Assembly (NCBI GenBank): GCA_021782915.1
Contig: JAJXUK010000001.1
Span: 1 to 64,000, forward strand
Origin: Actinomycetes bacterium
Lineage (GTDB): Bacteria > Actinomycetota > Acidimicrobiia > Acidimicrobiales > RAAP-2
DNA length: 64,000 nucleotides
Direction: 5' to 3'
Shown: positions 9,851-32,602 of the stretch, one piece after another
How positions within the stretch are numbered: position 1 is the stretch's first letter
How the letters are laid out: every line of letters begins with the position of its first letter
Program-made: the position numbers and the translations under genes
Notes under the pieces: generated by a model
Seen by the model: the letters and a program-made list of their open reading frames with translations, nothing else
The model's database searches: none
Told to the model about the DNA's origin: nothing

Positions 9851-10196
9851 GCCCGAGGACGCTCTTGACATCAACGCGGCCCGAAGTGGTGCGAGTGTCC
9901 CGGGGCGGACCACCAGGAGTGCGTCGCAACGAGCCGAGCGCGAACGAACTCGCGAGCGATGGAGGCGCCAGGACCGGCGACGTCGCATCACAGCACCCAC
10001 CCCTCGCGCTAGCGGGCGTGTCGTGTGGGCCCTCTACGGCTCCACGTACGCCGCGTCAGCGCTCAGAGGACGTCCGAGGCCACCACCGCCATCCGCGCCA
10101 GAACGGCGCCCTCCAGCGTCGCGAGTGAAGCGGTCACGAACCGCGGAGCTGCGTGCGCAACACCGCGGCGAACCAAGTCACTCAGGGCGTCACTGG

Positions 10197-10202
10197 TATA
10201 CT
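10197..10202 (+). promoter_or_regulatory. -10 box of leaderless permease promoter
   Basis: TATACT lies exactly 6 nt before the GTG at 10209 and decides the start of the permease gene. Confidence 0.65.
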
Positions 10203-10208
10203 CGCACG

Positions 10209-11177
10209 GTGCTTGTCTACATCCTGCGACGGCTCTTTCAGTCCCTAATTGTCCTGGCCATTATCGTCGTCGTGACGTTCACCCTGCCGTATTTCCAGCC
10301 CCAGGGAATCCTCGCGCCGGCGTACGCCACGTTGGGCCAACGCTCCACGCCCACGGCCATACGCACCTTCGCCCTGCAGCACGGGCTGGCGGGTTCGTAT
10401 CTCACGAGACTGTGGCAGTACGTCAATCAACTGGTCTTCCACCTGAATCTGGGACACTCCTTCAAGCAGAACATGTCCGTGTGGCAGATCATCTCGCTGT
10501 ACGTGCCCCGGACCATCTGGCTGGCCCTCACGGCGCTGATCCTGACGATTCTGATCGCGATCCCCCTGGGCGTGATACAGGCCACACGACGCAACACGAC
10601 GGTGGACTACGTCGCCACCGGGTCCGCGTTCGTCCTCTACGCGATGCCGTCCTTCCTGCTGTGCATCCTGGTCATCGACGCCTTCGGCTTTCACTGGCCC
10701 CACCTGCCCGTCTCGCCACCCTCGGGCGTCGCGCCGTGGGCGCTGTTTACCGATCCCAAGGGCTTCATCCTGCCGGTGGCGAGTCTGACGCTGCTATCCG
10801 TGGCGGCACTCAGTCGCTTCATGCGCGGCGCTGTGCTGGAGGTCCTGGTCCAGGACTACATCCGCACGGCACGGGCGAAGGGCTGCAACAACCGTCGCGT
10901 CCTGTGGCGTCACGCATTCCGCAATGCTCTCGGGCCGATCATCACCATCCTGGGCCTCTCGATTCCGGGGCTTTTCGGGGGGGCCCTCATCATCGAAGAC
11001 GTCTTCAACTACGCCGGACTAGGCGTGCAGACGGTAAACGCGGCGATCAACTTCGATGTGCCCACGGTGCTGGGGATCACCTTGCTCGTGGCCATCTTCA
11101 CGTTGCTCGGCAACTTGCTCGCCGACGTCGCCCTCGGACTGGTCAATCCACGCATTCGAATTGAAGGAACAAAGTGA
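10209..11177 (+). CDS. Peptide-type ABC transporter permease, DppB/OppB family
   Basis: The 322-residue protein opens with LVYILRRLFQSLIVLAIIVVVTF, the typical DppB first membrane helix. It then has about five more hydrophobic segments. The EAA loop that docks to the ATPase lies near residues 220-245 (YIRTARAKGCNNRRVLWRH), followed by FRNALGPIITILG. The frame stays open 62 codons further upstream, but that part has no family similarity, and a TATACT box 6 nt before 10209 fixes the start. It forms half of the membrane channel with the next gene product. Its stop overlaps the next start in GTGA. Confidence 0.92.
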   Translation: MLVYILRRLFQSLIVLAIIVVVTFTLPYFQPQGILAPAYATLGQRSTPTAIRTFALQHGLAGSYLTRLWQYVNQLVFHLNLGHSFKQNMSVWQIISLYVPRTIWLALTALILTILIAIPLGVIQATRRNTTVDYVATGSAFVLYAMPSFLLCILVIDAFGFHWPHLPVSPPSGVAPWALFTDPKGFILPVASLTLLSVAALSRFMRGAVLEVLVQDYIRTARAKGCNNRRVLWRHAFRNALGPIITILGLSIPGLFGGALIIEDVFNYAGLGVQTVNAAINFDVPTVLGITLLVAIFTLLGNLLADVALGLVNPRIRIEGTK

Positions 11178-12148
11178 GCGAAGACATTCGCGACGACGCC
11201 ACGCTCATCGAGCGATACTCGTCGGACGAGCGAGGAGTCGAGGAGATCGCCACCTCGGCGGCCGGCGTGCTCACCGACACCGCTGAGGTTGTGGTGCCGC
11301 TGTGGCGCCAGCGACTGCGCATCTTCATGAGCAACAAGCTGGCCATCGCCTCAGTGCTGTATCTGGTGCTGATCACACTGGCCTGCTTCCTTGGACCGAT
11401 CATCCACCCCACCAACCAGACGAATCAGGCCCTGACGTTCGGCACTCGATGGAACGCACCTCCCTCCATGGCCCACCCACTGGGCACGGACGCCAACGGC
11501 TTCGATGAGTTGGGCCGCATCTTCTACGGTGGGGAGTACTCGCTCACGCTCGGCTTCCTGGCCGGCTTCATCACGATCATCGTGGGCACGATCTACGGCA
11601 TGGTCTCGGGCTTCTTCGCCGGGCTCACCGACACGGTGATGATGCGTCTGCTGGACGCGTTCCTGTCGATCCCGTATCTGTTCCTTCTCATCACGCTGAT
11701 CACGATCTTCGGCCGCTCGACGATGTTCCTGATCACCATCATCGGCCTGACGGGCTGGTGGGGCAACGCCCGTATCATCCGTGGTGACGCACTGCTCATC
11801 CGCAATCTCGAGTACTCCCAGGCCGCCACGTCCATGGGGGCCGGACGTTGGCACATCATTCGGCGTCACGTCTTTCCGAACTCGATCAGCAACATCGTGA
11901 CCGTCGCGACGTTCTCGGTGGCTGATGCCATCCTGTTCCTGTCGGCCCTCGGATTCCTGGGCCTGGGCATTCAAACGCCCCAGACCGACTGGGGAACGAT
12001 GCTCCAGGCCGGCACGTCGCAGATCCAGAACGGTTTCTGGTGGGAGGTCTTGCCCCTCGCGACGATCTTTGTGCTCGTCGTGGTCAGCATCAACTACATC
12101 GGCGACGCACTACGCGACTCGTTCGAGGTTCGACTCCTCGAGCGTTAA
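11174..12148 (+). CDS. Peptide-type ABC transporter permease, DppC/OppC family
   Basis: The 324-residue protein has a long cytoplasmic N-terminal tail rich in Asp and Glu. Then come the DppC signature region (LWRQRLRIFMSNKLAIAS), the MAHPLGTDANGFDELGRIFYGG segment after the first helix and five further membrane spans. The EAA loop appears as YSQAATSMGAGRWHIIRRH followed by FPNSISNIV. It pairs with the preceding permease, whose stop it overlaps by 4 bp. The matching ATPases are encoded convergently downstream as one fused protein. Confidence 0.93.
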   Translation: MSEDIRDDATLIERYSSDERGVEEIATSAAGVLTDTAEVVVPLWRQRLRIFMSNKLAIASVLYLVLITLACFLGPIIHPTNQTNQALTFGTRWNAPPSMAHPLGTDANGFDELGRIFYGGEYSLTLGFLAGFITIIVGTIYGMVSGFFAGLTDTVMMRLLDAFLSIPYLFLLITLITIFGRSTMFLITIIGLTGWWGNARIIRGDALLIRNLEYSQAATSMGAGRWHIIRRHVFPNSISNIVTVATFSVADAILFLSALGFLGLGIQTPQTDWGTMLQAGTSQIQNGFWWEVLPLATIFVLVVVSINYIGDALRDSFEVRLLER

Positions 12149-12326
12149 ATTCCCTGCGGGCCCGCCGGATTCAGGAACCTGCCCGGCGCGAAGCCCGAAG
12201 ACGTCGAGTTCGAACGTGCCTGGGCAGCCGACGAGTCACCTTCGAGGCACCCGGGGCCCGTCCGGCGTCGATGTCGCGAGTGTGATCCACTTCTCACCGA
12301 GCGCTCCAGTCCTCGGGCGATCACGA

Positions 12327-12346
12327 CGAGATGAGGAACGATCTCG
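12327..12346 (+). terminator. Weak hairpin, possible terminator of permease operon
   Basis: CGAGAT pairs with ATCTCG across an 8-nt loop about 180 nt after the permease stop. There is no U-tract. Confidence 0.25.
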
Positions 12347-12548
12347 CTAAACCTGACTCCGCGCTCGCGGGGCCGAGACGCTCCTTGCGGAGCCTCTGAA
12401 CCTTCAGTGCCCAGCGACGAAGAGCAAAGGTCCATGGAGGCTTCGTCGAGTCACAGGATCTCTCGGCACGACCGACGAGGCGACTCTGCACGCAACGTCC
12501 GGCGCGAGATCGCGGCGTGGCCCTCTTGCGACTGCGTCAGCCCAGCTC

Positions 12549-12589
12549 GTGGCGCCCTGGCGCGTCAGCGCCCTCGGACGCGGCGCCAC
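12549..12589 (-). terminator. Nested hairpin after the fused ATPase gene
   Basis: An outer 8-bp stem (GTGGCGCC/GGCGCCAC) encloses a 5-bp hairpin with GTCA loop. It lies 7 nt beyond the stop codon of the ATPase gene, where a terminator is expected. It lacks a U-tract. Confidence 0.5.
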
Positions 12590-12595
12590 CCCGGC

Positions 12596-14629
12596 TCAGC
12601 TGGACGACGCACTCCGCGCCGTCAGCGAGACCGGCGTACGCAGCGGGAAGTGACAGGCGGCCTGCTGAGACGGGCCGAAGTCCTGAAAGAGTGGCTCCTC
12701 CGCCGCACAGATTCCCTGGGCTCGGGGACAACGCGTGCGAAAGCGACATCCCGTCGGCGGATTCACCGGCGACGGCAGCTCACCGGTCACCTGGCGTCCG
12801 CGCCGCGCCCGCGCCTCTACCGGCTCCGGTACGGGAACGGCGTCGAGCAGACCCTGCGTGTAGGGGTGCGCGGGATTGCGGAACACCGACTCGGCGTCTC
12901 CAATCTCGACGATCTTGCCGAGATACATGACGCCGATGGTGTCGGCCATGTAATAGACCACGGCCAAGTCGTGGCTCACGAAGATGTAGGTCAGTCCGTG
13001 CTCTCGCTGCAGATCCTTCATGAGGTTCAGGATCTGCGCCTGAATCGAGACGTCCAGCGCCGACACGGGCTCGTCCGCCACGATCAGGCGTGGATTGAGC
13101 GCTAGAGCCCTCGCGAGGCCGATTCGCTGGCGCTGACCGCCCGAGAATTCGTGCGGGTATCGATCGGCGGCGTAGCGGTCGAGTCCCGTCGCCAGCAGCA
13201 GCTCCTCGACGCGACGGCGCCGCTGCGCGCGGTTGCCCTCGCTCTGAACGAGGAGCGGCTCGCCGACGATGTCAGCCACCTTCATACGCGGGTTCAGGGA
13301 CGAGTAGGGGTCCTGAAACATCATCTGCAGCTGGCGTCGGTCCTCGCGAGCCGGTCGACGCGAGTGGGACGAAATGCTCACGCCGTCGAAGAACACTTCG
13401 CCGGCCGTCGGCGCCTCCAGACCCACCACCATGCGCCCGATGGTCGTCTTGCCGCAGCCCGACTCACCAACCAGGCCGAACGTCTCACCCTGGTTGATGG
13501 CGAAGTTCACTCCGGCGACCGCGCTGATCGCACCCACCTTGTGTCGAATGAGTCCCGCCTTGATGGCAAACTCCCTGGTCAGGTTCTCCACACGCAGCAG
13601 CTCCGTGGGAGAGGTCCCCGCCTTGTCCCTCACGACTGTCTCACGCACGATCGTCTCACGAGGACCCTGCACTGGGTGGAAGCACGCGAAGGTCCGATCC
13701 CCCTCCATGGTGAAGGGCGGCTCCTCAAGCCGGCACTGATCGGTCGCGAAGACACAGCGAGGGGCGAATCGGCAGCCTTCGATCGGCTTGGAGAGATCCG
13801 GCGGGAGACCCGCGATCGAGGCCAGCTCCTGCTTCGACGCGGTCTCGAGGCTCGGCATCGACGCGAGGAGCGCCTGCGAATACGGATGACGCATTCCGTG
13901 GAAGAGATCCATGGTGGATGCTTCCTCGGCCTTGCGGCCGCCATACATGACGACCACGCGATCGGCGCGTCCCGCAATCACGCCCATGTCGTGGGTGATC
14001 AGGAGGACTCCCATGTTGAGCTCAGTCCGCAGGTTGTCGATGATGTCGAGGATCTGCGCCTGAATTGTCACGTCTAGGGCCGTCGTGGGCTCGTCCGCGA
14101 TGAGCAGCTTCGGTCGACACACCAGGCTCATGGCGATGATGACCCTCTGGCGAAGTCCGCCCGAGAGCTCGAACGGGTACTGGCCGAGGCGCTCCGCGGG
14201 ACGCGGCATCTCGACCATCTCGAGAACCTCTAGAGCCCGCTTGTGCGCCTCAGCGTCAGACGCGCCAAAGTGGATTCGCAGTCCCTCGCCGATCTGCTTT
14301 CCGATCTTGGTGGCCGGATTGAGCGAGCTCATCGGATCCTGAGGGATGAGAGCCACGGATCGTCCGCGATGACTCTGCATCTCCTTCTCACTCAGCGAGC
14401 TCATCTCAACGCCGTCGAGGATGACCGAGCCAGCCCCGATGTGGCCATTGCCCGGCAGCAGTCGCATGATGGCCAGCCCGGTCGTCGTCTTTCCGCAGCC
14501 CGATTCACCGACCAAACCAACGCACTCACCGGGTCCCACCGAGAGCGAGAAGTCATCGACTGCCGTCACCAACGCCTTCTGCGTAGCGAATTGGACCTTT
14601 AAATTGTTGACTGTCAGGAGCGAAGACAT
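12596..14629 (-). CDS. Fused double ATP-binding protein of peptide-type ABC transporter (DppD-DppF fusion)
   Basis: The 677-residue protein contains two complete ABC ATPase cassettes in tandem. The first has GESGCGKTT near residue 40, an altered signature LSGGLRQR and Walker [13 protein letters not shown]. The second has GESGCGKTT near 395, signature FSGGQRQR and [12 protein letters not shown]. Each is followed by the Cys-containing oligopeptide-transporter C-terminal extension (CRFAPRC and CRFRTRC). It powers import by the two permeases encoded convergently upstream. Fused DppD-DppF proteins of this length are well known. It has its own start region with a TAAGAT -10 box, so it is transcribed apart from the permeases. 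Confidence 0.95.
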
Positions 14630-14638
14630 ACCTCGTAG

Positions 14639-14644
14639 ATCTTA
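14639..14644 (-). promoter_or_regulatory. -10 box upstream of fused ATPase gene
   Basis: TAAGAT on the minus strand, 9 nt before the ATG at 14629, implies a leader of only a few nucleotides. Confidence 0.45.
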
Positions 14645-14696
14645 CTCTCCGAATCAAGGGGGAGACGACGGCCCACCAGACAACGATGCGAAATTT

Positions 14697-15344
14697 CTAC
14701 CCACTGACCAGGCTCCACGACAAGCGATGCTCCGAGGTTGGGCCGTGCTCCTTGATCGCGTCGCGGTGCCGGCGCGTGCCGTAGCCCTTGTTGCGATTCC
14801 ACTCATAGGCGGGCCAGATCTCGTGCAACGTCTCCATGTGGGCGTCACGTTGCACCTTGGCCACCACCGAGGCCCCCGCGATGCTCGCGCACCGGGAATC
14901 TCCGCGCACCACGGTTCGAACCGGGGCGTCTGGCAGCGGCAGTGAACCAACCACGAGGCGCGGGCGCTTGGCCAGTGCACTGAGGTAGTCGAAGGAACCG
15001 TCCAGCAAGATGACGTCGGGTGAGATCGAGAGGTTCGCGAGAGCTCGAGCCGCCGCAAGGCCGAGGGCCACGCTGATGCCCCACTCGTCAATCTCTCGGG
15101 CACTCGCCCAACCCAGAGACCAGGACGCCGCCCACTCTCTGACGAGAGGTGCGATGACGATGCGGCGCCCAGCGCCGAGCATCTTCGAGTCAGTGAGCCC
15201 CTCCGGTGGCCCTTCCAGTGACGTCAACGCGACTGCCCCCACCGCCACCGGTCCGGCCAGCGAGCCTCGACCGACTTCGTCAAGACCCACGACGACGTGA
15301 CCCTGGGCGAGGTGGGGGGATTCAACCTCGAGGGTCGCCGGCAT
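14697..15344 (-). CDS. rnhB: Ribonuclease HII
   Basis: The 215-residue protein has the RNase HII catalytic set. GLDEVGRGSLAGP supplies the first Asp-Glu pair, ILLDGSFDY the next Asp, and GDSRCASIAGASVVAKVQRD the last acidic residue with the Ser/Ala/Lys helix. GYGTRRHRDAIKEHGP near the C-terminus is also diagnostic. The enzyme cleaves RNA in RNA/DNA hybrids, including single ribonucleotides in DNA. A TAGCCT box 6 nt before the ATG supports this start and a leaderless mRNA. Its promoter overlaps that of the divergent cofC. Confidence 0.95.
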   Translation of the reverse strand: MPATLEVESPHLAQGHVVVGLDEVGRGSLAGPVAVGAVALTSLEGPPEGLTDSKMLGAGRRIVIAPLVREWAASWSLGWASAREIDEWGISVALGLAAARALANLSISPDVILLDGSFDYLSALAKRPRLVVGSLPLPDAPVRTVVRGDSRCASIAGASVVAKVQRDAHMETLHEIWPAYEWNRNKGYGTRRHRDAIKEHGPTSEHRLSWSLVSG

Positions 15345-15350
15345 GACCTC

Positions 15351-15356
15351 AGGCTA
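15351..15356 (-). promoter_or_regulatory. -10 box of leaderless rnhB promoter
   Basis: TAGCCT on the minus strand lies exactly 6 nt before the rnhB ATG. Confidence 0.6.
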
Positions 15357-15364
15357 GTGAGACA

Positions 15365-15370
15365 TATCAT
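15365..15370 (+). promoter_or_regulatory. -10 box of leaderless cofC promoter
   Basis: TATCAT lies 7 nt before the GTG at 15378. It is only 9 nt from the opposing rnhB box, so the two promoters occupy the same DNA. Confidence 0.5.
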
Positions 15371-15377
15371 GCGCACC

Positions 15378-15950
15378 GTGACGCAGTGGGACACCCAGCG
15401 CGAGATCATTGTCCTCGTGCCACTGCGCGGTCTGCGCGAGGCCAAGCAGCGACTCCGCGAGGCGCTCGTGCCAGACGTCGACGACCTGGTTCGACGCCTC
15501 GCCCGCGGTGTCATCACTGCCGCCGCGCCGCGTAGGTGCGTGGTCGTGACCGAGGATCCAGAGACCGCCGACTTCGCACACGACCTTGGCGCGCAGGTCC
15601 TCATCTCGCCAGTGGCCTCACTCAACGGAGCCGTCCAGTGGGCCTACGCCGAGCTCGAGCGCCTTGCAGAGCATGTCGTCATCGCCCACGGCGATCTGCT
15701 CGAACCCTCAGGCGTACACGAGATGGGCCGGTTCCACGGAGTGACCCTGGTGGCGGATCATCACGGAGAGGGCACCACCGTCCTCGCCCTGCCGACGGGA
15801 ACGGCCTTCCGCTTCGCGTACGGGGCCCGGTCTCTGCGGCGCCACCGCGACGAGGCTCGGCGACTGGGCCTACCCTGTCGCGTCATTCTGGGCTCCACCC
15901 TGTCGCGCGACGTCGACGTGGCCGCCGACCTGGACCCAGACGGCACTTGA
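15378..15950 (+). CDS. cofC: 2-phospho-L-lactate/phosphoenolpyruvate guanylyltransferase (F420 biosynthesis)
   Basis: The 190-residue protein begins with [19 protein letters not shown], the nucleotide-binding loop of the CofC/FbiD family. [13 protein letters not shown] and [12 protein letters not shown] follow in the expected order. It would load GTP onto phospholactate or phosphoenolpyruvate to give the activated intermediate of coenzyme F420 synthesis. F420 is common in actinobacteria, which fits. The frame is open further upstream, into rnhB, but TATCAT 7 nt before 15378 favours this GTG; an ATG at 15369 is the alternative. Other F420 genes are not in the window. The last blocks are less conserved, so the family call is good but not certain. 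Confidence 0.8.
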
Positions 15951-15972
15951 GGGGGTCCGAAGACCCCCTCAA
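15947..15972. terminator. Bidirectional terminator hairpin between cofC and the H1-like gene
   Basis: A perfect 11-bp stem (TTGAGGGGGTC paired with its complement) with CGAA loop starts within the cofC stop codon. It lies between two convergent genes and reads equally from either side. Confidence 0.75.
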
Positions 15973-15999
15973 TGCCACTACTCAACTCGTCATAGCGAG

Positions 16000-16272
16000 C
16001 TACTTCTTGGCGACAGCCTTCTTGGCCGGAGCCTTCTTGGCGGCAGCCTTCCTGGCCGGAGCCTTCTTGGCTACCTTCTTGGCCGGTGCCTTCTTGGCCG
16101 GAGCCTTCTTGGCTACCTTCTTGGCCGGTGCCTTCTTGGCCGGAGCCTTCTTGGCGGCAGCCTTCTTGGCCGGTGCCTTCTTGGCGGCGGCCTTCTTGGC
16201 CGGAGCCTTCTTCGCTACCTTCTTAGCTGGGGCCTTCTTGGCCGGAGCCTTCTTCTTCGCGGCAGTTGCCAC
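16000..16272 (-). CDS. Histone H1-like Lys/Ala/Pro repeat DNA-binding protein
   Basis: The 90-residue product is almost wholly Lys, Ala, Pro and Val, arranged as repeated [10 protein letters not shown] and KKVA units. This composition matches eukaryotic H1 tails, the chlamydial Hc proteins and the C-terminal tail of mycobacterial HupB, but no HU-fold domain precedes it here. It is probably a nucleoid or nucleic-acid-binding protein; that is an inference from composition. The GTG start is preceded by a strong AAGGAGGG 3 nt upstream, a Shine-Dalgarno led start unlike most genes here. The DNA repeats could change length by slippage. A short palindrome lies 20 nt upstream of the start. Confidence 0.8.
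16005..16255 (-). repeat. Degenerate 15-bp tandem repeats inside the H1-like gene
   Basis: Units of the type CTTCTTGGCCGGAGC recur head to tail through the gene, with occasional CTACCTTCTTGG and GGCGGC variants. They encode the repeating Lys-Lys-Ala-Pro-Ala peptide. Confidence 0.85.
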
Positions 16273-16546
16273 TTTCCCTCCTTGGGACTCAACGTTGAAT
16301 CAACGTGGGTCGTGAACACCGCCGTGGTGCTTCACTCTTGACACCTCGCTGATGGTCATGAACTCGATCATGTGCTGCCCAGCGTCCCCGCTGTACAGCG
16401 TCCAATCGCAGTGCACGGTCCTTTGCCTTGGAGCACATCCCGAATGAACTGCTAGCACCACACCCGGAACATGTGCGCCTCCTCCGCAGAAGGACACTTA
16501 AAAGTTCACTCGCTCAACACACCAATGTCAAGCATTTCGACGACGA
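16273..16546. other. Intergenic region with palindromes between the H1-like and coupling-protein genes
   Basis: This gap is visibly richer in A/T than its surroundings. It carries a 15-nt inverted repeat at 16292-16306 (ACGTTGA-A-TCAACGT). A perfect 12-bp palindrome CGCTGTACAGCG lies at 16389-16400. A CAGCGTCC direct repeat lies at 16380-16387 and 16396-16403. No clear -10 box precedes the coupling-protein gene. The elements look like operators or, because a relaxase is nearby, a possible transfer-origin remnant; neither is proven. Confidence 0.45.
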
Positions 16547-17863
16547 ATGCGACCGTTGTCGAAAGTGATCGATGAGCGCGGCATCTACCTCGGACGTGGT
16601 CAACACGGTGACGTCTTCAGTGGACGTGAGCTCTCGACGCTCGTGCTCGGTCCAACTCGCAGTGGCAAGACGTCAGCACTCATCATCCCGAACCTGTTAA
16701 CGACCCAACGCGCTGCGATCATCACCTCCACGAAGGACGACGTCGTGCAACGCACCGCCGGACAGCGTCGCGATGTCACGACGCTGCTCTTTGACCCCTC
16801 CGACACGGTGATCGCGCCGCGGGGCGTCGAGCGCGTGGGCTACTCGCCGCTGCAGCACGCGCGCACCTGGGACGGCGCGGTGCTGGCGACGCGCAGCCTG
16901 CTGGACGTCGCGAGACGCGGCGGCCCCGATCGTGCCGAGGATCACTGGACCGAGCGCGCCGGGGCGCTCGTCGCCCCCCTGTTGCACGCGGCCGCCCTGG
17001 CTGGCGAGTCGCTCCCCCAGCTGGCCACGCGCATCGACGAGCGCCAGGCCGGCGCCCACCTCGACCTGCTGCGCGAGGCCTACGGAGACGCCCATCCCGC
17101 CACGGCCCTCTTGGGAGGCATCCTGAGCACCGAGGAACGCGAACGCTCCGGCATCTGGTCGACGGCGTCGGGCCTCTTCGCCGGGCTGCGCACCGAGGGT
17201 GCGCGTCGCGCCGCACAGATCGGGGCGCTCGACGTGTCGGAGTTCCTCTCGGGGCGCCACCAGCTGCACATCGTGGCCCCCAGTCGGCACCAGGCGCTCT
17301 CGGTGCCGCTCGTCGTGGGCTTGATCGAGCACGTCGTGCACACGACCTACGAACGACACCACGACGGCGCCCGACTCCTGCTCGCTCTGGACGAGATGGC
17401 CAACGTGGCTCCCCTGCCCCAGCTGCCCAGCCTCGTCTCAGAGGGGGGAGGTCAGGGCGTTCTCACGCTGGCCTGTCTACAGGACCTGAGCCAGGCCCGG
17501 GTGCGCTGGGGCGCCGCGGCCGACGGTTTCCTCTCGCTCTTTCCTACGACGATCGCCCTGCCCGGGCTAGCGGATCGGCGCACCCTCGAGCTGCTCTCGC
17601 ACCTCGCGGGACGGGTCCAGGTGCCCGTCGAGTCCCGTCAGCGCGGCGCGTGGCATCAGCCGCGCTCCTCCAGCACGAGCTGGATCGAGCGGGATCGAGC
17701 GAGTCTCGCCCAGCTGGCCCAGGGCCGGCCGGGACACGCGCTCACCGTGCGCGCGGACAAGTCGCTGGGCTGGGTCGAGCTCACCCCGGCGCACCGCGAC
17801 CCGCGCTTCCTGGGCTATCGCTCGCGCAGCGACCGAGAGTCCTCTCGCACCCGAGAGCGCTGA
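16547..17863 (+). CDS. VirD4/TraG-like type IV coupling ATPase without membrane anchor
   Basis: The 438-residue protein has Walker A GPTRSGKT at 35-42, followed by SALIIPNLLTT as in VirD4/TraG coupling proteins. Walker B is LLLALDE at 277-283, and the following NVAPLPQLPSLVSEGGGQGV matches the TraM-recognition segment. Typical VirD4 proteins are 550-700 residues with two N-terminal membrane helices; none is present here, so this one is cytosolic or recruited by a partner. Coupling proteins bring relaxase-bound DNA to a type IV secretion channel, but no channel genes are in the window. The C-terminal tail is Arg/Ser rich and overlaps the opposing relaxase gene by 49 bp. Confidence 0.82.
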   Translation: MRPLSKVIDERGIYLGRGQHGDVFSGRELSTLVLGPTRSGKTSALIIPNLLTTQRAAIITSTKDDVVQRTAGQRRDVTTLLFDPSDTVIAPRGVERVGYSPLQHARTWDGAVLATRSLLDVARRGGPDRAEDHWTERAGALVAPLLHAAALAGESLPQLATRIDERQAGAHLDLLREAYGDAHPATALLGGILSTEERERSGIWSTASGLFAGLRTEGARRAAQIGALDVSEFLSGRHQLHIVAPSRHQALSVPLVVGLIEHVVHTTYERHHDGARLLLALDEMANVAPLPQLPSLVSEGGGQGVLTLACLQDLSQARVRWGAAADGFLSLFPTTIALPGLADRRTLELLSHLAGRVQVPVESRQRGAWHQPRSSSTSWIERDRASLAQLAQGRPGHALTVRADKSLGWVELTPAHRDPRFLGYRSRSDRESSRTRER

Positions 17864-18858
17864 CGTGCTCGCTCTCGCTCGTGCCAGCCTTCAAGGTCGA
17901 GCGAGCGAACACGGGTGATCCCCACGCTGGGCCCCTCCAGCCCACGTGAGGCGATCAACTCGGGCAGGGCGACATCGACGCCGCTCTCAATGCGATCCGC
18001 ACGCGCCCCGAAGACCTGGGCGTCGGCCCAGGAGGCGACCACGTGGGATCGCGTGATACGCGTCAAGCCCTCGAACGCCGCGGCGAAGGCGTGCACGTCG
18101 AGCGCGCGGCTCGGGGGAACCACTTCGGCCTCCGGCTGATATCGGCTCAGGGCGCGCGCCCACTCGGAGCGCGCCGCCTCACGCGAGTAGTGGCGTTTCG
18201 TGCCCCGCTCGTCGTGATGACCTCCCCAGAGGGTCCGGTATCCCTCGTCGACGCCGGTGACGGCCTCTAGTCCGCCGAAGGATCGCCACGCCACCCAGCC
18301 CGTGCGACGCGCGAGCTCGACCCGCAGGTGTGCGCGATAGAGCGCGTCGGCGGCGACCTGATGCGCACGCAGCGATCTGGCGTCGAGCACGGTGTCCTCG
18401 CCCTCAGGACGCGCGCCGACGAGCACGTGATCATGAAGGTGTGGATCGCCGTGACGGTTCACGCCGTGGGTGAAGGAGACGACTGACTCCCAACGGGCCG
18501 ACCACTGCGCGTTCATCCCGCCCCGGCGCACTCGCACGCTCAGGGCTCGATCTTCGAGGTAGCGCAGCGCGGCGGCCACCGACTCGCGATGAGCCCGCAC
18601 GAGCCCCGCGCCGGCGGACTCGTCCAGCGCCAGCAGCACCGACACGGGGCGTGGGGCGGCCACGATGATGTCGTAGCCGAGCACGCGAGCGCGCGGGCTC
18701 GATCCCAACACCCCGGCGACACGGTCCGGGTCTGACGCGTCACCGTCTCCGCGCAGCCACCAGCCGGCGCTGGGGCGGAGTCCGTCCAGCTCACGAGCCT
18801 GGTCCTCGGTGTAGTAGCGCACGTCGCGACTGCGACGAGGCATGATCCGGATCATCAC
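17815..18858 (-). CDS. MobF (TrwC-type) relaxase domain protein without helicase
   Basis: The 347-residue protein matches only the relaxase domain of TrwC/TraI. It has a double Tyr at 15-16 (VRYYTEDQ), GYDIIVAAPRPVSVLLAL at about 61-78 (family form: LTFSAPKSVS) and the metal-binding HLHDH at 140-144 in a GDPHLHDH context. Full MobF relaxases carry a helicase domain and exceed 900 residues, so this one is minimal. It could nick and bind DNA strands; conjugative function is unproven. The ATG one codon inside the GTG start (18855) lies 6 nt from a weak TAGGGG box and may be the true start. The C-terminal 16 codons lie antisense to the coupling-protein gene. Confidence 0.8.
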   Translation of the reverse strand: MMIRIMPRRSRDVRYYTEDQARELDGLRPSAGWWLRGDGDASDPDRVAGVLGSSPRARVLGYDIIVAAPRPVSVLLALDESAGAGLVRAHRESVAAALRYLEDRALSVRVRRGGMNAQWSARWESVVSFTHGVNRHGDPHLHDHVLVGARPEGEDTVLDARSLRAHQVAADALYRAHLRVELARRTGWVAWRSFGGLEAVTGVDEGYRTLWGGHHDERGTKRHYSREAARSEWARALSRYQPEAEVVPPSRALDVHAFAAAFEGLTRITRSHVVASWADAQVFGARADRIESGVDVALPELIASRGLEGPSVGITRVRSLDLEGWHERERARQRSRVREDSRSLRER

Positions 18859-18861
18859 GTC

Positions 18862-18867
18862 CCCCTA
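18862..18867 (-). promoter_or_regulatory. Possible weak -10 box of relaxase gene
   Basis: TAGGGG on the minus strand lies 6 nt before the ATG at 18855. It lacks the final T, so read-through from pafBC 27 bp upstream is an alternative. Confidence 0.3.
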
Positions 18868-18885
18868 GCGGGAACGCAACGGTCC

Positions 18886-20817
18886 CTAGAGTCGCTCGGC
18901 GATGCGCGCGGCCAGCGCGCGGCCCGCCTTGGCGAAGCCAGGCGTGGCCACAACCGCGCCGGCGCCGGCGCGCAGCATCAGGTGGTCCAGGAACCGCTCG
19001 TCGCGCACGCGAAAGGCCACCGCCAGGCGCCCGTCCTGCAGTGCACGCCACTGGGCGTTGGGCAGGGGCTCGAACAGCCAGCGCAGTCCGGGCTCGATGA
19101 CCACCACCACCTCGTCACCGCCCTCGCCGACCTCGGTCAGCCAGTTGACCACCGGATCCACGGCACGCTCGGCGGCCACGGGTGACTTGGCCAAGATCGC
19201 CCCGATGCGATCGACACGGAACGTGCGCCAGTCCCCTCGCGTGGTGCAGAAGGCCCGCACGTAGGCGTGCCCGTTGAGCACCCGCAGCTCACGAGGTTCG
19301 ATGACCCGTGTCTCGGACTGCTCGGACTCGCTGGAGGTGTACGTGATCTTGATCTGCTCGGAGGCCTCAATGGCGTCTCGCAACTCGTCGAGGAGCCACT
19401 CGTGGGCGGTCTCTACGCGAACGAAGCCGTCCACGGCATCCTCGATCTTGGCGATGGCCGACGACAGCGCCGGGTCGTCGTAGAGGCGCGCGGCCTCACG
19501 CAAGGCGATGTTCACCTCGAAGAGATCACGCCAGTAGAGCGGGGCGGGCTCGTGGTGTCCGTCGCGATCGAAGTACTCGACGGTGTAGAGGGAGTCGTCG
19601 TTGGCCTCGTCGTCCCAGTCGTCGCACTCCTTCACGACGTGGGCGGGAAAGCCGTACGCGCCGCCCATGGGCTCGAAGGTCACGAGCCGATCCATCACTC
19701 GTCGCACCATCGCGGGGTCCATGGAGAAGCGGTGGGCCAGGTCACTGATGCGCAGTCCCTGCGCCGACTGGTACACCGCGTGCAGCAGGCGCAGCGTCTG
19801 GCCGAGCGAGTCGTTGGGCGAGCTCTGATTGAAGGTGATCCCGCTGAGATCCGGCGCCGTGGCCCGGTTGACGTGGCGCAGCCAGTCGGCCAACTCCTGG
19901 CGCAGGGACTTCGGCGCACGCAGACGCAGGCGCTCCCCGGCGTCGAGCACGAAGCGCAGCGCGTCGCGTGGGCTGTCGAAGGCCAGCTCAACTTCGGCGA
20001 TCCCGGCGCTGGTCGTGGCCAGCGTGGCACCCGGGAACTGACGGCACAGCAGGGTGGCGTAGTCCTCACTAGTCTCCACCACGATCTGCGTGGGCTCGAG
20101 CGGCCGAGCGAACTCGGGTCGCCAGGCCGCGGCCGCCTCGCGAGTCGGCGCGTCGGCCTCGAAGGCCACGTCCAGGACCGTCGGCATGGAGGTCATGCGC
20201 GTCACACGGTACCCCTTGATCGCGCTGGAACCGTGAACCCGAGCGATCAGGTAGGCCGCCCCCTCGAAGACGCCGATGGACAGAGGATCGACGACGCGGA
20301 CCTTCTCGCTCGTGCTGCGATAGTCGAAGCGCACGGCGCGCTGCAGGCGCAGCGCGCGCACCAGCGGGGTGTAGTAGTTGGAAAAGGACAGTCCTCCGTC
20401 GCCCGCCGGACCCTCGTTGAACAGGCTGAAGGCGCCGGGCGCACCGAAGCCGCAGAAGCGCAGGGCGAGACGCACGACGCGCTCCTCGTCCTCGGTGAAG
20501 TCGATCTTGGGCGCAGTGGCGCTGTCCGGCTCGATCCAGTACCCGACGCTGCCACCGCCCAGGTCGAGCGTCTCGATCTGAAAGCCCAAGTCGCGAATCC
20601 TGGCCTTGTCACGCTCGAATTTCTGGCGCACCGCCACTTCACTGCCCTGGTACGCGGGGATGCGCCGTGGCGCGCGGGACTCGCGCGGCTCGTCGACCAG
20701 CAGCTCTCTGACGATCACGTCCTGGGTCAAAGGGTTCTGACGCGAGGCGCTCTGCAGCAGCAGCACCAGGGCCACGAGCCGCTCACGGCTCTCTTCGGCG
20801 GCTTGCGAGGTGGCCAT
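18886..20817 (-). CDS. pafBC: PafC/PafB-type WYL transcription factor, both halves fused
   Basis: The 643-residue protein contains two HTH-WYL modules in one chain. Each has an N-terminal helix-turn-helix (ERLVALVLLLQSASRQNPLT; and, near residue 335, QTLRLLHAVYQSAQGLRISD). Each is followed by a WYL ligand-binding domain (AVRFDYRS...IGVFEGAAYLIARV; IKITYTSS...LRVLNGHAYVRAF) and a C-terminal WCX segment. In mycobacteria PafB and PafC are separate subunits of a DNA-damage-response activator; fused forms are known in some actinobacteria. This gene is not next to proteasome genes here. It follows moaC by 19 bp and is probably co-transcribed with it. Confidence 0.88.
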   Translation of the reverse strand: MATSQAAEESRERLVALVLLLQSASRQNPLTQDVIVRELLVDEPRESRAPRRIPAYQGSEVAVRQKFERDKARIRDLGFQIETLDLGGGSVGYWIEPDSATAPKIDFTEDEERVVRLALRFCGFGAPGAFSLFNEGPAGDGGLSFSNYYTPLVRALRLQRAVRFDYRSTSEKVRVVDPLSIGVFEGAAYLIARVHGSSAIKGYRVTRMTSMPTVLDVAFEADAPTREAAAAWRPEFARPLEPTQIVVETSEDYATLLCRQFPGATLATTSAGIAEVELAFDSPRDALRFVLDAGERLRLRAPKSLRQELADWLRHVNRATAPDLSGITFNQSSPNDSLGQTLRLLHAVYQSAQGLRISDLAHRFSMDPAMVRRVMDRLVTFEPMGGAYGFPAHVVKECDDWDDEANDDSLYTVEYFDRDGHHEPAPLYWRDLFEVNIALREAARLYDDPALSSAIAKIEDAVDGFVRVETAHEWLLDELRDAIEASEQIKITYTSSESEQSETRVIEPRELRVLNGHAYVRAFCTTRGDWRTFRVDRIGAILAKSPVAAERAVDPVVNWLTEVGEGGDEVVVVIEPGLRWLFEPLPNAQWRALQDGRLAVAFRVRDERFLDHLMLRAGAGAVVATPGFAKAGRALAARIAERL

Positions 20818-20836
20818 CAGCGCCCTCGGGCGCGGG

Positions 20837-21340
20837 TCACGCCTCGACCCCGTCTTCGCCCTGGGTCTCGCGGCGCCAGGTGCCCGAGCGACCGCCGGAC
20901 TTCTCCCACAGGGCGATGTCCGCGATCGTCATGGTTCGATCGGCGGACTTGCACATGTCGTAGATCGTCAGCGCGGCGACGCTGACCGCCGTCAGGGCCT
21001 CCATCTCGACGCCGGTGCGGTCCACGGTGTCCACGCTGGCCTCCACCTCGATGTAGCGGTCCGCGATGAAGAAGTTGAGATAGACGGTGCCCACCATGAC
21101 CGGGTGGGCCATGGGCAGCAGCACGGACGCCTGCTTGGCCGCCTGGATCCCCGCCACCCGGGCCGTGGCCAGGACGTCGCCCTTGTTGATGGTGTTGGCG
21201 GCAACGGCCGCGGTGGTCGCGGCCTGCATGTACACCCGCCCGCGCGCCAGCGCGCGCCGCGCGGTTACCTCGGCGGCACCCAGTTCTCGCGGGAAAGCGC
21301 CTTCACGTGGCGAGCGTCGCAACTGGTGGAAATCGTCCAC
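20837..21340 (-). CDS. moaC: Cyclic pyranopterin monophosphate synthase (MoaC), divergent
   Basis: The 167-residue protein keeps the MoaC core: KGDVLATARVAGIQAAK, RTGVEMEALTAVSVAALTIYDMCKSAD and LWEKSGGRSG. These hold the active-site Lys, Glu, Asp and Lys residues. It makes cPMP from the MoaA product in molybdopterin synthesis. Two usual features differ. The MVDVS motif near the N-terminus is missing, and the PLCHP loop reads PMAHP, keeping the catalytic His but not the Cys. A TAGCAT box 6 nt before the GTG supports this start, so the short N-terminus is not a start-site error. The enzyme is probably active, but its divergence is noted. Confidence 0.85.
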   Translation of the reverse strand: MDDFHQLRRSPREGAFPRELGAAEVTARRALARGRVYMQAATTAAVAANTINKGDVLATARVAGIQAAKQASVLLPMAHPVMVGTVYLNFFIADRYIEVEASVDTVDRTGVEMEALTAVSVAALTIYDMCKSADRTMTIADIALWEKSGGRSGTWRRETQGEDGVEA

Positions 21341-21346
21341 CGGGAC

Positions 21347-21352
21347 ATGCTA
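21347..21352 (-). promoter_or_regulatory. -10 box of leaderless moaC promoter
   Basis: TAGCAT on the minus strand lies exactly 6 nt before the moaC GTG. Confidence 0.6.
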
Positions 21353-21396
21353 CTGAGGGCCGAGGCGGTGCCGACGAGGCGATGCTTCGCGCCCGA

Positions 21397-21425
21397 TACA
21401 CTGCCACGCAGGAGTCACCCGGGAG
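21397..21425 (+). promoter_or_regulatory. -10 box and ribosome site of fmdB-like gene
   Basis: TACACT at 21397-21402 is followed by GGGAG at 21421-21425, 5 nt before the ATG at 21431. This start is led by a ribosome site. Confidence 0.5.
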
Positions 21426-21430
21426 ACCTC

Positions 21431-21652
21431 ATGCCGACCTACGAGTACGAGTGCCAGTCCTGTCACCAGCGAGTTGAGGCTGTCCAGCGCTTCGCCGATG
21501 CCCCGTTGACGACCTGCGAGGCCTGTGGCGGTGAGCTCAAGAAGGTGTTCTCGGCGGTGGGCATCGTGTTCAAGGGCAGCGGCTTCTACAAGACCGACAG
21601 TCGCGGCACGAGCACGGCCACCAGCGCGGCGAGCGCCACCAGTTCGGACTAG
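21431..21652 (+). CDS. FmdB-family zinc-ribbon protein
   Basis: The 73-residue protein starts PTYEYECQSCHQRVEAVQ, followed by two CxxC pairs (CQSC and CEAC) that form a zinc ribbon. GIVFKGSGFYKTDS is the family's conserved block. The C-terminus is a Ser/Thr/Ala tail. FmdB proteins were named as putative regulators of formamidase or formate dehydrogenase genes, but the biochemical role is not settled. The frame is open further upstream; the ATG at 21431 with GGGAG 5 nt before it matches the family N-terminus. Its TAG stop overlaps the opposing tldE stop in CTAG. Confidence 0.9.
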   Translation: MPTYEYECQSCHQRVEAVQRFADAPLTTCEACGGELKKVFSAVGIVFKGSGFYKTDSRGTSTATSAASATSSD

Positions 21653-23004
21653 GCGCCCGACACCGCCAGGTCCGCGATCGCCAGGCTCTGACCGGCGGCC
21701 ACGCCCGGCAGCCACGTCAGGTCCGCTCCTACGTGCGAGATGTCCAGCAGCATTCGCTGCAAGGTGGAGGCCACCGTCACCTCACGCACTGCTTCGGCCA
21801 GCTCACCGTCGCGAATCATCAGTCCGGTGACCCCGACGGAGAAGTCACCGGAAACCGGATTCACTCCCGAGTGCACGCCCGTGAGCGAGTCGACCAGCAG
21901 GCCCTCGCCCACCTCACGCCAGATCTGCTCTGGCGTGAGTGATCCGGGGCGAAGCCTCAGGGCGCGCACGCCAGCCGAGGGCGAGCCCGCGATGCCAGCG
22001 CGCACGGCGCCACCGGTCCCGGCCACGCCAGCACGACGTGCGGACACGGTGTCATAGACGAAGTCGCGCAGAACGCCATCCTCGATCAGGGTGTTGCGCC
22101 GACAGGCCAGGCCCTCGCCATCGAAGTTTGACGCCGAGAAGTGGCGCGCGTCCGTGGGATCGTCGACGAGCGTCACGCCTGATGAGGCGACCGCCTCGCC
22201 CCGGCGACCCGCGAAGAAGGACCGGCCGCGCACCACCGCCTCCCCGCTCAGGGCCCTTCCCACGATGCCCAAGAAGCTTGCCGCCGTGCGCGGGTCCAGG
22301 ACGACGGACATGCGACGCGACGCCGGCCGGGTCGCTCCCAGGTGACGCGTCGCGCGCTCAACAGCGTCCCGGGCCGCCACCATCAGGTCGAGCTCCTCGG
22401 GCGAGCGACCCGCACTCAGACCCCAGCCGGTCTGATCGCCCGCCGGATCTGACGCGATGGCCTCGACCGACAGGTAGGCCCCCGAGCGCGCGTATCGGGC
22501 CTCGACACCCGTCGTGGAGAGCAACACGGCCTCGACGACGAAGTCCGAGTAGGCGGCACGCTCCACCTGACGGATCCGCGCGTCGCCCGCACGCACCACG
22601 CGTTCGAGCTCCCGTGCCAGATCGATCTTGCGCGCCAGGGCGGTGCCCCGCACACCCTCGCTCAGCAGCTGCAGTCCCGCGGGCCCCACCCCATCAGGGC
22701 GTGCGAAGGTGACGAAGTCGTCGGGGGTCGCGAAGCGCGCGTTGTCGCGCGCCTGGGCCAGCGCCTCGTCCACGGCCGCCTCCTCGAGCGAGCCGGCCCA
22801 CGCGGTGCCCACCCGCGCACCCGCATCGCCCTCCAGGAGCACTCGCACACCGATACCGGAGGACGTGGCGGTGGTCAGCTTCTCAATTTCGCCCTCGTAG
22901 ACCTCCACGTCCGTGTCCGTCCCCCGGCTGAGGTAGACCTCGACGTGCTCGTCGGCCTCCGCACGCTCCACGACGCGCCGAGCCAGGTCTCGAAGTTCGC
23001 TCAC
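21649..23004 (-). CDS. tldE: TldE/PmbA-family protein (subunit of TldD/TldE metalloprotease)
   Basis: The 451-residue protein has the TldE layout: VEVYLSRGTDTDVEVYEGEIEKL at the start, a region with SGIGVRVLLEGDAGARVGTAW, and a C-terminal GNPVSGDF-like block (GVNPVSGDFSVGV). It lacks the HExxxH motif, which is in its partner TldD; in characterised pairs TldD cuts peptides and TldE forms the heterodimer. Its GTG start overlaps the tldD stop in GTGA, so the two subunits are translated together. A frame extension upstream would run into tldD and is not credited. Its stop overlaps that of the fmdB-like gene. Confidence 0.92.
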   Translation of the reverse strand: MSELRDLARRVVERAEADEHVEVYLSRGTDTDVEVYEGEIEKLTTATSSGIGVRVLLEGDAGARVGTAWAGSLEEAAVDEALAQARDNARFATPDDFVTFARPDGVGPAGLQLLSEGVRGTALARKIDLARELERVVRAGDARIRQVERAAYSDFVVEAVLLSTTGVEARYARSGAYLSVEAIASDPAGDQTGWGLSAGRSPEELDLMVAARDAVERATRHLGATRPASRRMSVVLDPRTAASFLGIVGRALSGEAVVRGRSFFAGRRGEAVASSGVTLVDDPTDARHFSASNFDGEGLACRRNTLIEDGVLRDFVYDTVSARRAGVAGTGGAVRAGIAGSPSAGVRALRLRPGSLTPEQIWREVGEGLLVDSLTGVHSGVNPVSGDFSVGVTGLMIRDGELAEAVREVTVASTLQRMLLDISHVGADLTWLPGVAAGQSLAIADLAVSGA

Positions 23005-24395
23005 GACGCCGTACCGCCAATCGTGACGCTCGTCAGACGCATCGTCGCCTGTCCCGTGCCCACGGGCACGGACTGGCCGTCCTTGCCGCACGTGCCGGGG
23101 GTCATCGAGAAGTCGCCGGCCACGGCGTCCACGCGCTGCAAGATGGCGGGCCCGTTGCCGATCAGATTGCAGTCGCGCAGCGGTGTCGTCACGACTCCGT
23201 TCTCGATGAGGTACGCCTCTGTCATGCCGAACACGAAGTCACCGGTCGTCGTATTCACCTGGCCCCCACCGAGCTGTGCTACGTAGACGCCGTAGGGAGT
23301 TTGGGCGATGATCTCCGCGGCGTCATCCTGTCCGGGCAGCAGGTAGGTATTGGTCATGCGCACCATCGGCAGGTGCTGGTAGCTCTGGCGCCGCCCGTTG
23401 CCCGACGATGCGCGGCCCTCGCGTCGGGCCCGCAGCAGGTCCCACATGTAGTCAGTCAGAACGCCGTTCTCAATGAGCACGTTGCGCGAGCCGGGGTGTC
23501 CTTCGTCGTCGACTCCGAGATAGCCCCACTCACCAGCCACCGTGCCGTCGTCGACGAGACTCACGAGCGGACTCGCCACGCGCTCGCCGAGGCGATTGGC
23601 GTAGACCGACGCCTGTTTGAGAATCGCGTCGGCCTCGAGTCCATGACCACAGGCCTCGTGAAAGAGGATGCCACCCGAACCCCCGGCCAGCACGACGGGC
23701 AGGTCCCCGGAGGGTGCGGGGCGGGCCCGCAGCTTGGTCAGCGCCTGGCGAGCGGCCTGGCGAGCCGTACTCTCGATGACCTCGTCGCTCAGGGCCTCGA
23801 AGCCTCGAGTGACAGCGAAGGGCTGGTAGCCCGTCTGCAGTCCAGCGTCGCCGCTGGCCACGCACGAGACGACGAATCGAGTGCGCACCTGATGCTCGCC
23901 CGCGATCAGACCGTCCGTGTTGGCCACGAGGAAGTGCCGAGAGGAGTCACCGATGCCCACCTGGACCTGACTGATCGCCCCGCCCTGGCTGCGAGCCACG
24001 TCGTCAGCTCGGCGCAAGAGACCAACCCGGTGGGCCTTGTCAACCTCCTCGGGCAGGACGTGGGCCAGACTGGCCCGCTCGGACAGGCGCCCGAGCGTGA
24101 CCGCTCGAGCGCCGGGCTCCCCGGAGCGTGCCACGGCCGCCGCCGCCTCGGCCGCGGCCAGAAGGCCCGCCTCTGAGAGGTCAGCGGTGTGGGCAAAGCC
24201 CGTCGTCTCTCCCACCACCACCCGGATGCCGGCTCCTCGATCGCGCCCACTGCTGAGCTCCTCAACGCGGCCCTGATCGAGAGAGGCCCCCGAGCTACGG
24301 CGATCCTCGGCGTAGACCTCGGCGAACTCGCCCCGAGCGCCCGCGAAACTCAGGACGCGCTCGAGGACATCGGGTTCGATCAGGGGACTGGGCAC
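23001..24395 (-). CDS. tldD: TldD-family zinc metalloprotease
   Basis: The 464-residue protein carries the TldD zinc motif HEACGH (HExxxH) near residue 245, in the context GGSGGILFHEACGHG. The later SYQHLPMVRMTNTYL and TTTGDFVFGMTEAY blocks are also typical. It acts with the overlapping tldE product to degrade or trim peptides. Two adjacent GTG codons are possible starts (24398 and 24395). A TACCAT box lies exactly 6 nt before the second, which is chosen. It diverges from dxs, whose start shows the same doubled GTG. Confidence 0.93.
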   Translation of the reverse strand: MPSPLIEPDVLERVLSFAGARGEFAEVYAEDRRSSGASLDQGRVEELSSGRDRGAGIRVVVGETTGFAHTADLSEAGLLAAAEAAAAVARSGEPGARAVTLGRLSERASLAHVLPEEVDKAHRVGLLRRADDVARSQGGAISQVQVGIGDSSRHFLVANTDGLIAGEHQVRTRFVVSCVASGDAGLQTGYQPFAVTRGFEALSDEVIESTARQAARQALTKLRARPAPSGDLPVVLAGGSGGILFHEACGHGLEADAILKQASVYANRLGERVASPLVSLVDDGTVAGEWGYLGVDDEGHPGSRNVLIENGVLTDYMWDLLRARREGRASSGNGRRQSYQHLPMVRMTNTYLLPGQDDAAEIIAQTPYGVYVAQLGGGQVNTTTGDFVFGMTEAYLIENGVVTTPLRDCNLIGNGPAILQRVDAVAGDFSMTPGTCGKDGQSVPVGTGQATMRLTSVTIGGTAS

Positions 24396-24401
24396 CACGA
24401 A

Positions 24402-24407
24402 ATGGTA
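24402..24407 (-). promoter_or_regulatory. -10 box of leaderless tldD promoter
   Basis: TACCAT on the minus strand lies 6 nt before the GTG at 24395 and chooses between two adjacent GTG codons. Confidence 0.55.
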
Positions 24408-24451
24408 CCGGGGACCCTAGGCACGCCCATCGGAATCTCGAAGAGCACCGG

Positions 24452-24457
24452 TAGAAT
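24452..24457 (+). promoter_or_regulatory. -10 box of leaderless dxs promoter
   Basis: TAGAAT lies 6 nt before the GTG at 24464, choosing it over the GTG at 24461. Confidence 0.6.
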
Positions 24458-24463
24458 TCAGTG

Positions 24464-32321: not shown

Positions 32322-32602
32322 CCGGCCGAGACCTCTCACACGAGGGGCTGCGCGTGTCTGACCTGGTCTTTGACCCCACACCTGCCTGCTGCGACGTCCG
32401 TGCGCGCGCTGACAGCCGAAGCTCTTCCGCGCGTGCTCGCACACTTCGCCGGCTCGTGCGACGACCACCTTGATCGCCGTCCGGCAGGACTTACCTCTAA
32501 ACCGCGCCATGCTCAGCGCCCAAAAGGCGCCTTACGTGGGTCGTTTCGCCCGCGGCTGGCCTCGACTTTCAACCACAGAACCACCCGCAGCCCCTGATGA
32601 GT

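Follow-up and report, generated by a model that had tools for sequence, protein, structure and literature searches.

A chromosomal relaxase and coupling ATPase pair of the Acidimicrobiales and its probable part in an inherited, non-mobile conjugation system

Conjugation genes are usually a hallmark of selfish, mobile DNA. The described systems closest to the one considered here are the MobF relaxases TrwC (R388) and TraI (F, pKM101), a class defined by two catalytic tyrosine pairs, the coupling ATPases VirD4, TrwB and TraG, and the type IV secretion systems (T4SSs) of actinobacterial integrative and conjugative elements (ICEs). The archaeal Ced system, which imports DNA and to our knowledge has no relaxase, uses conjugation-type machinery for chromosomal DNA exchange, and the gonococcal genetic island (GGI) of Neisseria gonorrhoeae is an F-like island that was horizontally acquired. 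In the accessible text of PMC12857230 the GGI, whose relaxase and T4SS have chromosomal DNA as target, stands beside Streptomyces TraB, mycobacterial distributive conjugal transfer and mycoplasma chromosomal transfer as a non-canonical route of chromosomal transfer. Actinobacteria have many relaxases and few T4SSs, and T4SSs without a relaxase have been suggested to be often domesticated (PMC3158045, the part available); an excerpt of PMC3218068 gives the Acidimicrobidae as devoid of actinomycete ICEs, another kind of element, and Acidimicrobiia go unmentioned in the accessible portion of PMC11104534. No earlier description of a system such as that reported below was found in the open-licence literature. 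We describe a pair of genes in a 64,000-nucleotide stretch (the window) of an Actinomycetes bacterium of the order Acidimicrobiales (assembly GCA_021782915.1, contig JAJXUK010000001.1, positions 1 to 64,000) that encode a relaxase and a VirD4-type coupling ATPase (D4-1). Together with a second locus in the same genome (locus 2), this pair (locus 1) probably constitutes an ancient, vertically inherited and non-mobile conjugation system, most likely one that transfers chromosomal DNA, a reading to which we assign a probability of about 0.57.

A sequence-only reading of the window had described a 438-residue coupling ATPase lacking a membrane anchor that faces a 347-residue relaxase lacking a helicase, and open reading frames, Pfam matches and hydropathy bear this out (Table 1). 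The relaxase matches the Pfam TrwC profile above cut-off (2.9e-26, profile positions 70–224 of 286) and scores 83.5 bits with NCBIfam MobF, below the 100-bit cut-off of that model. Its structure model (pLDDT 95.4) has the TrwC/TraI relaxase fold, superimposing on TrwC (1zm5) with a Z score of 20.0 and an rmsd of 2.8 over 238 residues; MOBV, the next relaxase class, follows far lower at a Z score of 6.9. No helicase match was found in the protein by Pfam scan, and the C-terminal RecD-like helicase expected of a MobF protein is thus not seen. Tyr15, which by analogy with TrwC and TraI we take to be the nucleophile, is replaced only in L058, which was translated from an incorrect start and across an ambiguous base. 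At position 16, 43 of the 51 distinct orthologues have Phe, six have Leu and one has Cys, Tyr occurring in this genome only, and the conservation line of the relaxase contains no second Tyr pair, so that of the two MobF pairs Tyr15 alone is retained. His131, His140, His142 and His144 are invariant in all 51 sequences and align with the H...LHTH motif of TraI; judged by these residues alone, the His triad of MobF proteins appears to be present, and its members presumably bind metal as in their analogues. Of the MobF motifs named in the sequence-only reading, the HLHDH sequence therefore stands and the double Tyr does not. Orthologous relaxases in the genus have 304–417 residues, the 304-residue form being that of genome G103, and five of the six loci in which stops were read have an open frame of 330–356 codons from the start of the match. 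The relaxase accordingly shares its fold, His motif and first Tyr with TrwC and TraI but differs from them in the missing helicase half, the unconserved second Tyr and its fixed chromosomal site.

D4-1 has the RecA-like ATPase with Walker A and B motifs and the TraG-D_C domain that characterize VirD4, TrwB and TraG (Pfam T4SS-DNA_transf, 6e-20; TraG-D_C, 1e-17). Foldseek places its model, which has a pLDDT of 75.4 and low confidence near both Walker motifs, close to Cag-beta (8dol, 1.8e-14) and TrwB (1e9s, 2.2e-11) in the PDB. The Walker A sequence GP(T/S)RSGKT is intact in the 50 orthologues that reach it, one of the 51 aligned ATPases being truncated by a contig end. Unlike VirD4, TrwB and TraG, D4-1 lacks an N-terminal membrane anchor, since hydropathy analysis finds no hydrophobic segment in it and none starting within the first 60 residues in any of 80 orthologue entries (duplicates counted), and it differs further in having a paralogue at a second fixed locus. 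The orthologous ATPases in the genus comprise 370–472 residues, the 370-residue one being truncated at a contig end, and stops occur within the ATPase match in two of the 24 loci read, either close to the C terminus or within the variable N-terminal part.

The pair had also been described as isolated and without channel genes. No channel gene is seen around it, but the genome does contain a T4SS locus: on contig C37, a different contig from that of the pair, senX3/regX3 and a ROK gene flank a group of five genes (L087, 5155–9859), and both loci are widely conserved. The five genes encode a pilin-like protein, B2 (DUF6112, 7.9e-8; T4SS_pilin below its cut-off), a protein with many transmembrane segments and no Pfam match, B6, which is VirB6-like by position and hydropathy, a SCO6880-like N-terminal part of VirB4 (2.9e-14, below the curated cut-off), the C-terminal VirB4 ATPase (AAA_10, 1.5e-10; VirB4 4ag5 in the PDB, 2.8e-15) and a second VirD4 (D4-2, 8.5e-24), so that VirB4, VirB6-like, pilin-like and VirD4 components of a conjugative T4SS occur together. 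The third and fourth genes, which abut in L087 (6535–8717), are read as a split VirB4 because the two parts form one open frame of 733–744 residues in five of 13 genus loci (L090, L093, L097, L098 and L100). The order SerS-RegX3-SenX3-[B2 B6 SCO6880 B4 D4]-ROK, then an amidohydrolase, is found in all of these 13 loci, which were picked for holding D4-2, and the VirB4 of locus 2 is present in 92 of 99 genus genomes. Two conserved boxes, TCTCGCAGAC and GCGACCGTTG, lie upstream of the channel operon (upstream of 5155 in L087), each exact in 10 of the 13 loci, and no motif common to loci 1 and 2 was found. A further T4SS, of mobile type, is located on contig C15 of the same genome (L088, 7.5 kb) and comprises ArdC, VirD4, VirB4 and a SCO6880 protein. 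Locus 2 has the same SCO6880-VirB4-VirD4 order as this and other ICE-type systems but is fixed by senX3/regX3 and ROK, has shorter genes and a split VirB4, and its VirD4, like D4-1, lacks the hydrophobic N-terminal segments of the C15 protein.

Relatives were collected from genome contigs. A scan with the single relaxase sequence gave no match, and one with the ATPase alignment gave 241 relatives, of which the best 80 were kept; these are metagenome-assembled genomes labelled Acidimicrobiaceae, Acidimicrobiales, Actinomycetes or actinobacterium, with a few labelled otherwise, and many bear bog or palsa isolate names. Most of the genomes compared are drafts. The relaxase is present in all 60 same-genus genomes searched, and 94 of 99, counting the genome under study, have an orthologue-like ATPase; the exceptions are G111, without any match, and G100, G125, G130 and G137, whose best E values are no better than 2.7e-23 to 5.6e-20, the match in G100 being a 31%-identical paralogue. 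All 20 genus loci compared have the two genes tail to tail with pafBC next to them. Further out, 17 of these loci show cofC and rnhB, the other three contigs stopping before reaching them, 16 show moaC and 13 tldD. In three sister pairs the dN/dS ratios are 0.13, 0.20 and 0.15 for the relaxase and 0.07, 0.16 and 0.10 for the ATPase, as compared with 0.11–0.17 for cofC, 0.08–0.31 for rnhB, 0.05–0.11 for pafBC and 0.01–0.07 for moaC. Evolutionary distances of the pair follow those of the flanking genes (Mantel r 0.76–0.89, reached by 0 of 2000 permutations). Across the two loci, in six genomes, D4-1 distances correlate with those of D4-2 and B4 (r 0.96 and 0.91; 4 of 2000 permutations) and with those of SerS at r 0.50 (95 of 2000 permutations). 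Because the positions are fixed, selection is purifying and descent in the genus is vertical, the host would be expected to benefit from the system.

These results bear directly on whether the pair could be a stranded or dying mobilisable element, either an integrative mobilisable element (IME) or a plasmid remnant. The genes are of conjugative type and the same genome holds the mobile-type T4SS of C15, which would suit such an origin, but the fixed position, the low dN/dS ratios and the distances that track those of the flanking genes make it hardly credible. There is no tRNA in the window, and the direct repeats in 15300–21400 consist only of the internal repeats of the K/A-rich gene described below and two weak pairs, so that neither the attachment repeats or tRNA site nor the patchy distribution of an ICE or IME is seen; none of the six window proteins scanned against Pfam is an integrase, although no dedicated integrase search was made. 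On genus-wide presence, fixed loci, low dN/dS and the lack of tRNA and repeats, a mobile-element reading was rejected. The sequence-only reading had left the choice between a relic and a domesticated chromosomal system, and had named as signs of a recent or dying element a pair confined to this genome, decayed motifs or flanking integration duplications. These were looked for and are not what is found: gene order, the pafBC flank and the overlap recur in relatives, the His and Walker residues are invariant at low dN/dS and a distant T4SS locus exists, which speaks against the relic and strongly supports domestication. Among plasmids, 417 records match the relaxase, none covering 80% of it, and 568 match the ATPase, 95 of them covering 80%, all at less than 60% identity. 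No ATPase relatives were found in IMG/VR, and one weak match was found among phages.

In the mechanism that we propose, the pair would be the DNA-processing half of the system and the small type IV channel at the second fixed site, with B2, B6, the split VirB4 and the second VirD4, the other half. The relaxase would nick a chromosomal site and remain attached to the 5′ end; the anchorless VirD4 ATPases, singly or together, would deliver the relaxase and its single-stranded DNA to the VirB4/B6/B2 channel, which would move them into a neighbouring cell or outside and so exchange chromosomal DNA. We infer a joint action of the relaxase, D4-1 and the channel, DNA as their cargo, the nick site and the direction of transfer. 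The GGI would be a parallel in combining a relaxase and a T4SS, its counterpart here being assigned that role from its genes, but the parts of the present system are inherited at two housekeeping sites and the GGI lies at one place.

The pair might instead work inside the cell as a domesticated relaxase and DNA pump in replication, plasmid clearance or repair, the T4SS serving another purpose. Such a role is in keeping with the solubility of both proteins as judged by hydropathy, with the neighbouring pafBC, a DNA-damage regulator in mycobacteria, and with the location of the two loci on different contigs here; however, the channel is kept in the same genomes, in two genomes of family f16 a relaxase adjoins the channel operon (see below) and neither window protein has a PADLOC match, and we consider this explanation unlikely. 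The lack of PADLOC matches also leaves a defence reading of the pair without support, although the ATPases of locus 2 do match mad8 and HerA models (D4-2 with mad8, 1.3e-10). It is less probable again that the T4SS serves protein export or contact signalling and that the relaxase is kept as its substrate or for a side task. T4SSs without a relaxase are thought to be often domesticated for protein transport (PMC3158045, as far as its text was available), two different VirD4s are retained and the VirB4 of locus 2 resembles the defence ATPase mad8, but a relaxase with an intact active site is under selection in the same genomes.

The conjugation system proposed here is not confined to the genus. 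In two other genera of the family, a relaxase of similar size occupies the same place. In the order, 72 of 248 genomes, belonging to 19 families, have the ATPase at a best E of at most 4.1e-57, a cut set by eye (the next genome is at 1.3e-54), and in the phylum it reaches E 1e-60 in eight of 296 genomes, seven of this order and one (G416) outside it, where the locus has channel genes without senX3. Among the matches listed, VirB4 (E 1e-20) occurs in 71 of the 72 ATPase holders and 27 of the 176 other genomes of the order, and a second VirD4 in at least 64 and in 22, respectively. Position is stronger evidence than this co-occurrence because the VirB4 and D4-2 profiles catch mobile-type genes too. 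The channel adjoins senX3 in 28 of 35 loci from ATPase-holding families (five of the rest run into the end of a contig or of the fetched stretch and two lack it), in none of five loci from families without the ATPase and in three of 15 further loci, 16 families in all. The relaxase lies at most 2.5 kb from pafBC in nine other families (f21, f31, f32, f38, f39, f45, f47, f48 and f61), and cofC was seen in 17 of 48 loci with the ATPase, many on short contigs. Genome G091 has the ATPase, a single TrwC relaxase about 28 kb away and the channel at senX3. In G075 and G202 (L284 and L287, family f16), a relaxase frame adjoins B2 of a B2-B6-SCO6880-VirB4 operon, a physical link between both halves that a mobile-type T4SS may also explain; neither genome has a separate D4-2 match. 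Longer relaxases also occur at this place in other families, and because an AAA_30 helicase-type match is present in three of five such long frames, as compared with none of five shorter ones, the ancestor of the relaxase likely carried a helicase.

ComEC (PF03772) was found in none of 16 clade genomes, the genome under study and G091 included, and in 10 of 14 control genomes. This absence raises the possibility of a system that imports DNA, like the archaeal Ced, and replaces uptake of the ComEC type, but the conserved relaxase points to nicking and export, and we hold import to be very unlikely. The absence, from a survey that covered clade genomes and controls, fits relaxase-led transfer and proves nothing in itself. 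The present system, with its relaxase retained, would represent a turn of conjugation-type machinery to chromosomal exchange similar to that of Ced. ComEC is also missing in 10.7% of actinobacterial strains according to the available part of PMC6299819.

A number of observations weigh against an inherited conjugation system. DNA transfer, an origin of transfer (oriT) and the partnership of the two loci are themselves deduced from the genes. The relaxase has no helicase and matches the TrwC profile only in part, and in G103 (L310) its match shifts frame midway, near ambiguous bases. In this genome neither D4-1 nor D4-2 has a membrane anchor by hydropathy, locus 2, the only place searched, showed no recognisable VirB1-, VirB3- or VirB8-like gene, and the VirB4 part of locus 2 matches mad8 (3.6e-23) and also HerA in PADLOC. 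Within the genus, five of 99 genomes, fragmented drafts, lack an orthologue-like ATPase and seven lack VirB4, and over all comparable pairs the median dN/dS rises to 0.28 for the relaxase (581 pairs) and 0.16 for the ATPase (693 pairs). The co-occurrence of the system parts is confounded by shared descent and mobile-type genes: as the holders are related and the VirB4 and D4-2 profiles reach mobile-type genes in controls at 1e-76 and 1e-80, it is weak evidence. Outside the genus, the relaxase lies inside the fetched stretch in only 10 of 40 loci chosen by ATPase, many on short contigs; in f39 and f45 the two genes lie apart, the relaxase next to pafBC and the ATPase next to cofC; and four further loci from ATPase holders (G075, G202, G194 and G187) have the channel without senX3. 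Distances across families correlate less well than in the genus, with r 0.71 for ATPase and CofC, 0.40 for ATPase and PafBC, 0.26 for relaxase and PafBC (113 of 2000 permutations as high) and at most 0.28 for B2. Housekeeping genes do no better among themselves (r 0.26–0.65), and vertical inheritance at the deep level is only moderately supported by these comparisons.

Upstream of the ATPase gene, a noncoding element of 72 nucleotides is conserved in the genus and may be an oriT or have a regulatory role. Its core 12-mer (16407–16418) has a single occurrence in the window and is present without mismatch in 17 of 20 genus loci. The hairpin has 13 cells changed on both sides, and its paired percentage and covariation score were reached by none of 500 shuffles; the number of compensating pairs and the pair types were reached by 26 and 34 of the 500, and RNAalifold preferred another fold. 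A covariance model finds the element within the genus, including the divergent L080 at 41 bits; hits elsewhere are all weak, and the best of them, in L198 (19.6 bits, E 0.064), lies directly upstream of the ATPase of that locus. A direct scan found no copy with fewer than three mismatches near 16 non-genus ATPase starts. As neither a clear copy outside the genus nor an Rfam match was found, an order-wide oriT and a known RNA were both rejected as identities for the element.

The features of locus 1 and its neighbours are listed in Table 1. The K/A-rich gene beside the ATPase had been read as H1-like; its conservation holds, but it resembles a HupB/HU tail, and eight loci from four other families have an HU-plus-tail protein next to the ATPase (one confirmed by Pfam). 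Among the 20 genus loci the K/A-rich gene is missed only in L073, where the contig stops shortly past the ATPase start. The composition, which had been called normal, is corrected here to a G+C content of 0.72 over the pair and 0.61–0.72 across 10001–26000. Elsewhere in the window, a raiA RNA (RF03072, 133 bits) lies at 32349–32589 on the reverse strand.

Table 1. Features of locus 1 and flanking genes (window coordinates)
Feature	Coordinates	Strand	Basis
cofC, flanking anchor gene	15297..15950	+	Pfam; present in 17/20 genus loci
K/A-rich HupB-tail gene ("H1-like"; identity putative), conserved neighbour	16000..16272	-	In 19/20 genus loci
Conserved noncoding element (72 nt) with compensating hairpin, upstream of the ATPase	16351..16422	.	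Comparison of genus loci
D4-1, VirD4/TrwB-type coupling ATPase, 438 residues, no membrane anchor	16547..17863	+	Pfam, Foldseek, hydropathy
Walker A GPTRSGKT, residues 35–42 of D4-1	16649..16672	+	Alignment of 51 orthologues
Walker B acidic pair Asp282-Glu283 of D4-1	17390..17395	+	51/51 distinct orthologues
Tail-to-tail overlap of ATPase and relaxase genes, 49 bases	17815..17863	.	Open reading frames; overlaps in relatives too
MobF (TrwC-type) relaxase, relaxase domain only, 347 residues	17815..18858	-	Pfam, structure model
His motif of relaxase, His131 ... His140-Leu-His142-Asp-His144	18427..18468	-	Orthologue alignment
Presumed catalytic Tyr15 of relaxase	18814..18816	-	Tyr in 50/51 distinct orthologues
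pafBC (WYL/WCX regulator), flanking anchor just upstream of relaxase	18886..20817	-	Beside relaxase in 20/20 genus loci

Taken as one claim, and only tentatively, since we think it possible rather than probable, a large clade of the Acidimicrobiales may own an inherited, domesticated machine for "bacterial sex", made up of a relaxase, a miniature channel and two coupling ATPases encoded at two housekeeping sites, which transfers chromosomal DNA between kin, probably predates the 19 families, has replaced ComEC transformation and in the genus uses the 72-nucleotide element as oriT. If this is true, a bacterial lineage would have made conjugation a host function, as a counterpart to the archaeal DNA-exchange systems, and relaxases and T4SSs annotated on chromosomes of this kind, which are usually taken as mobile elements, would need rereading.

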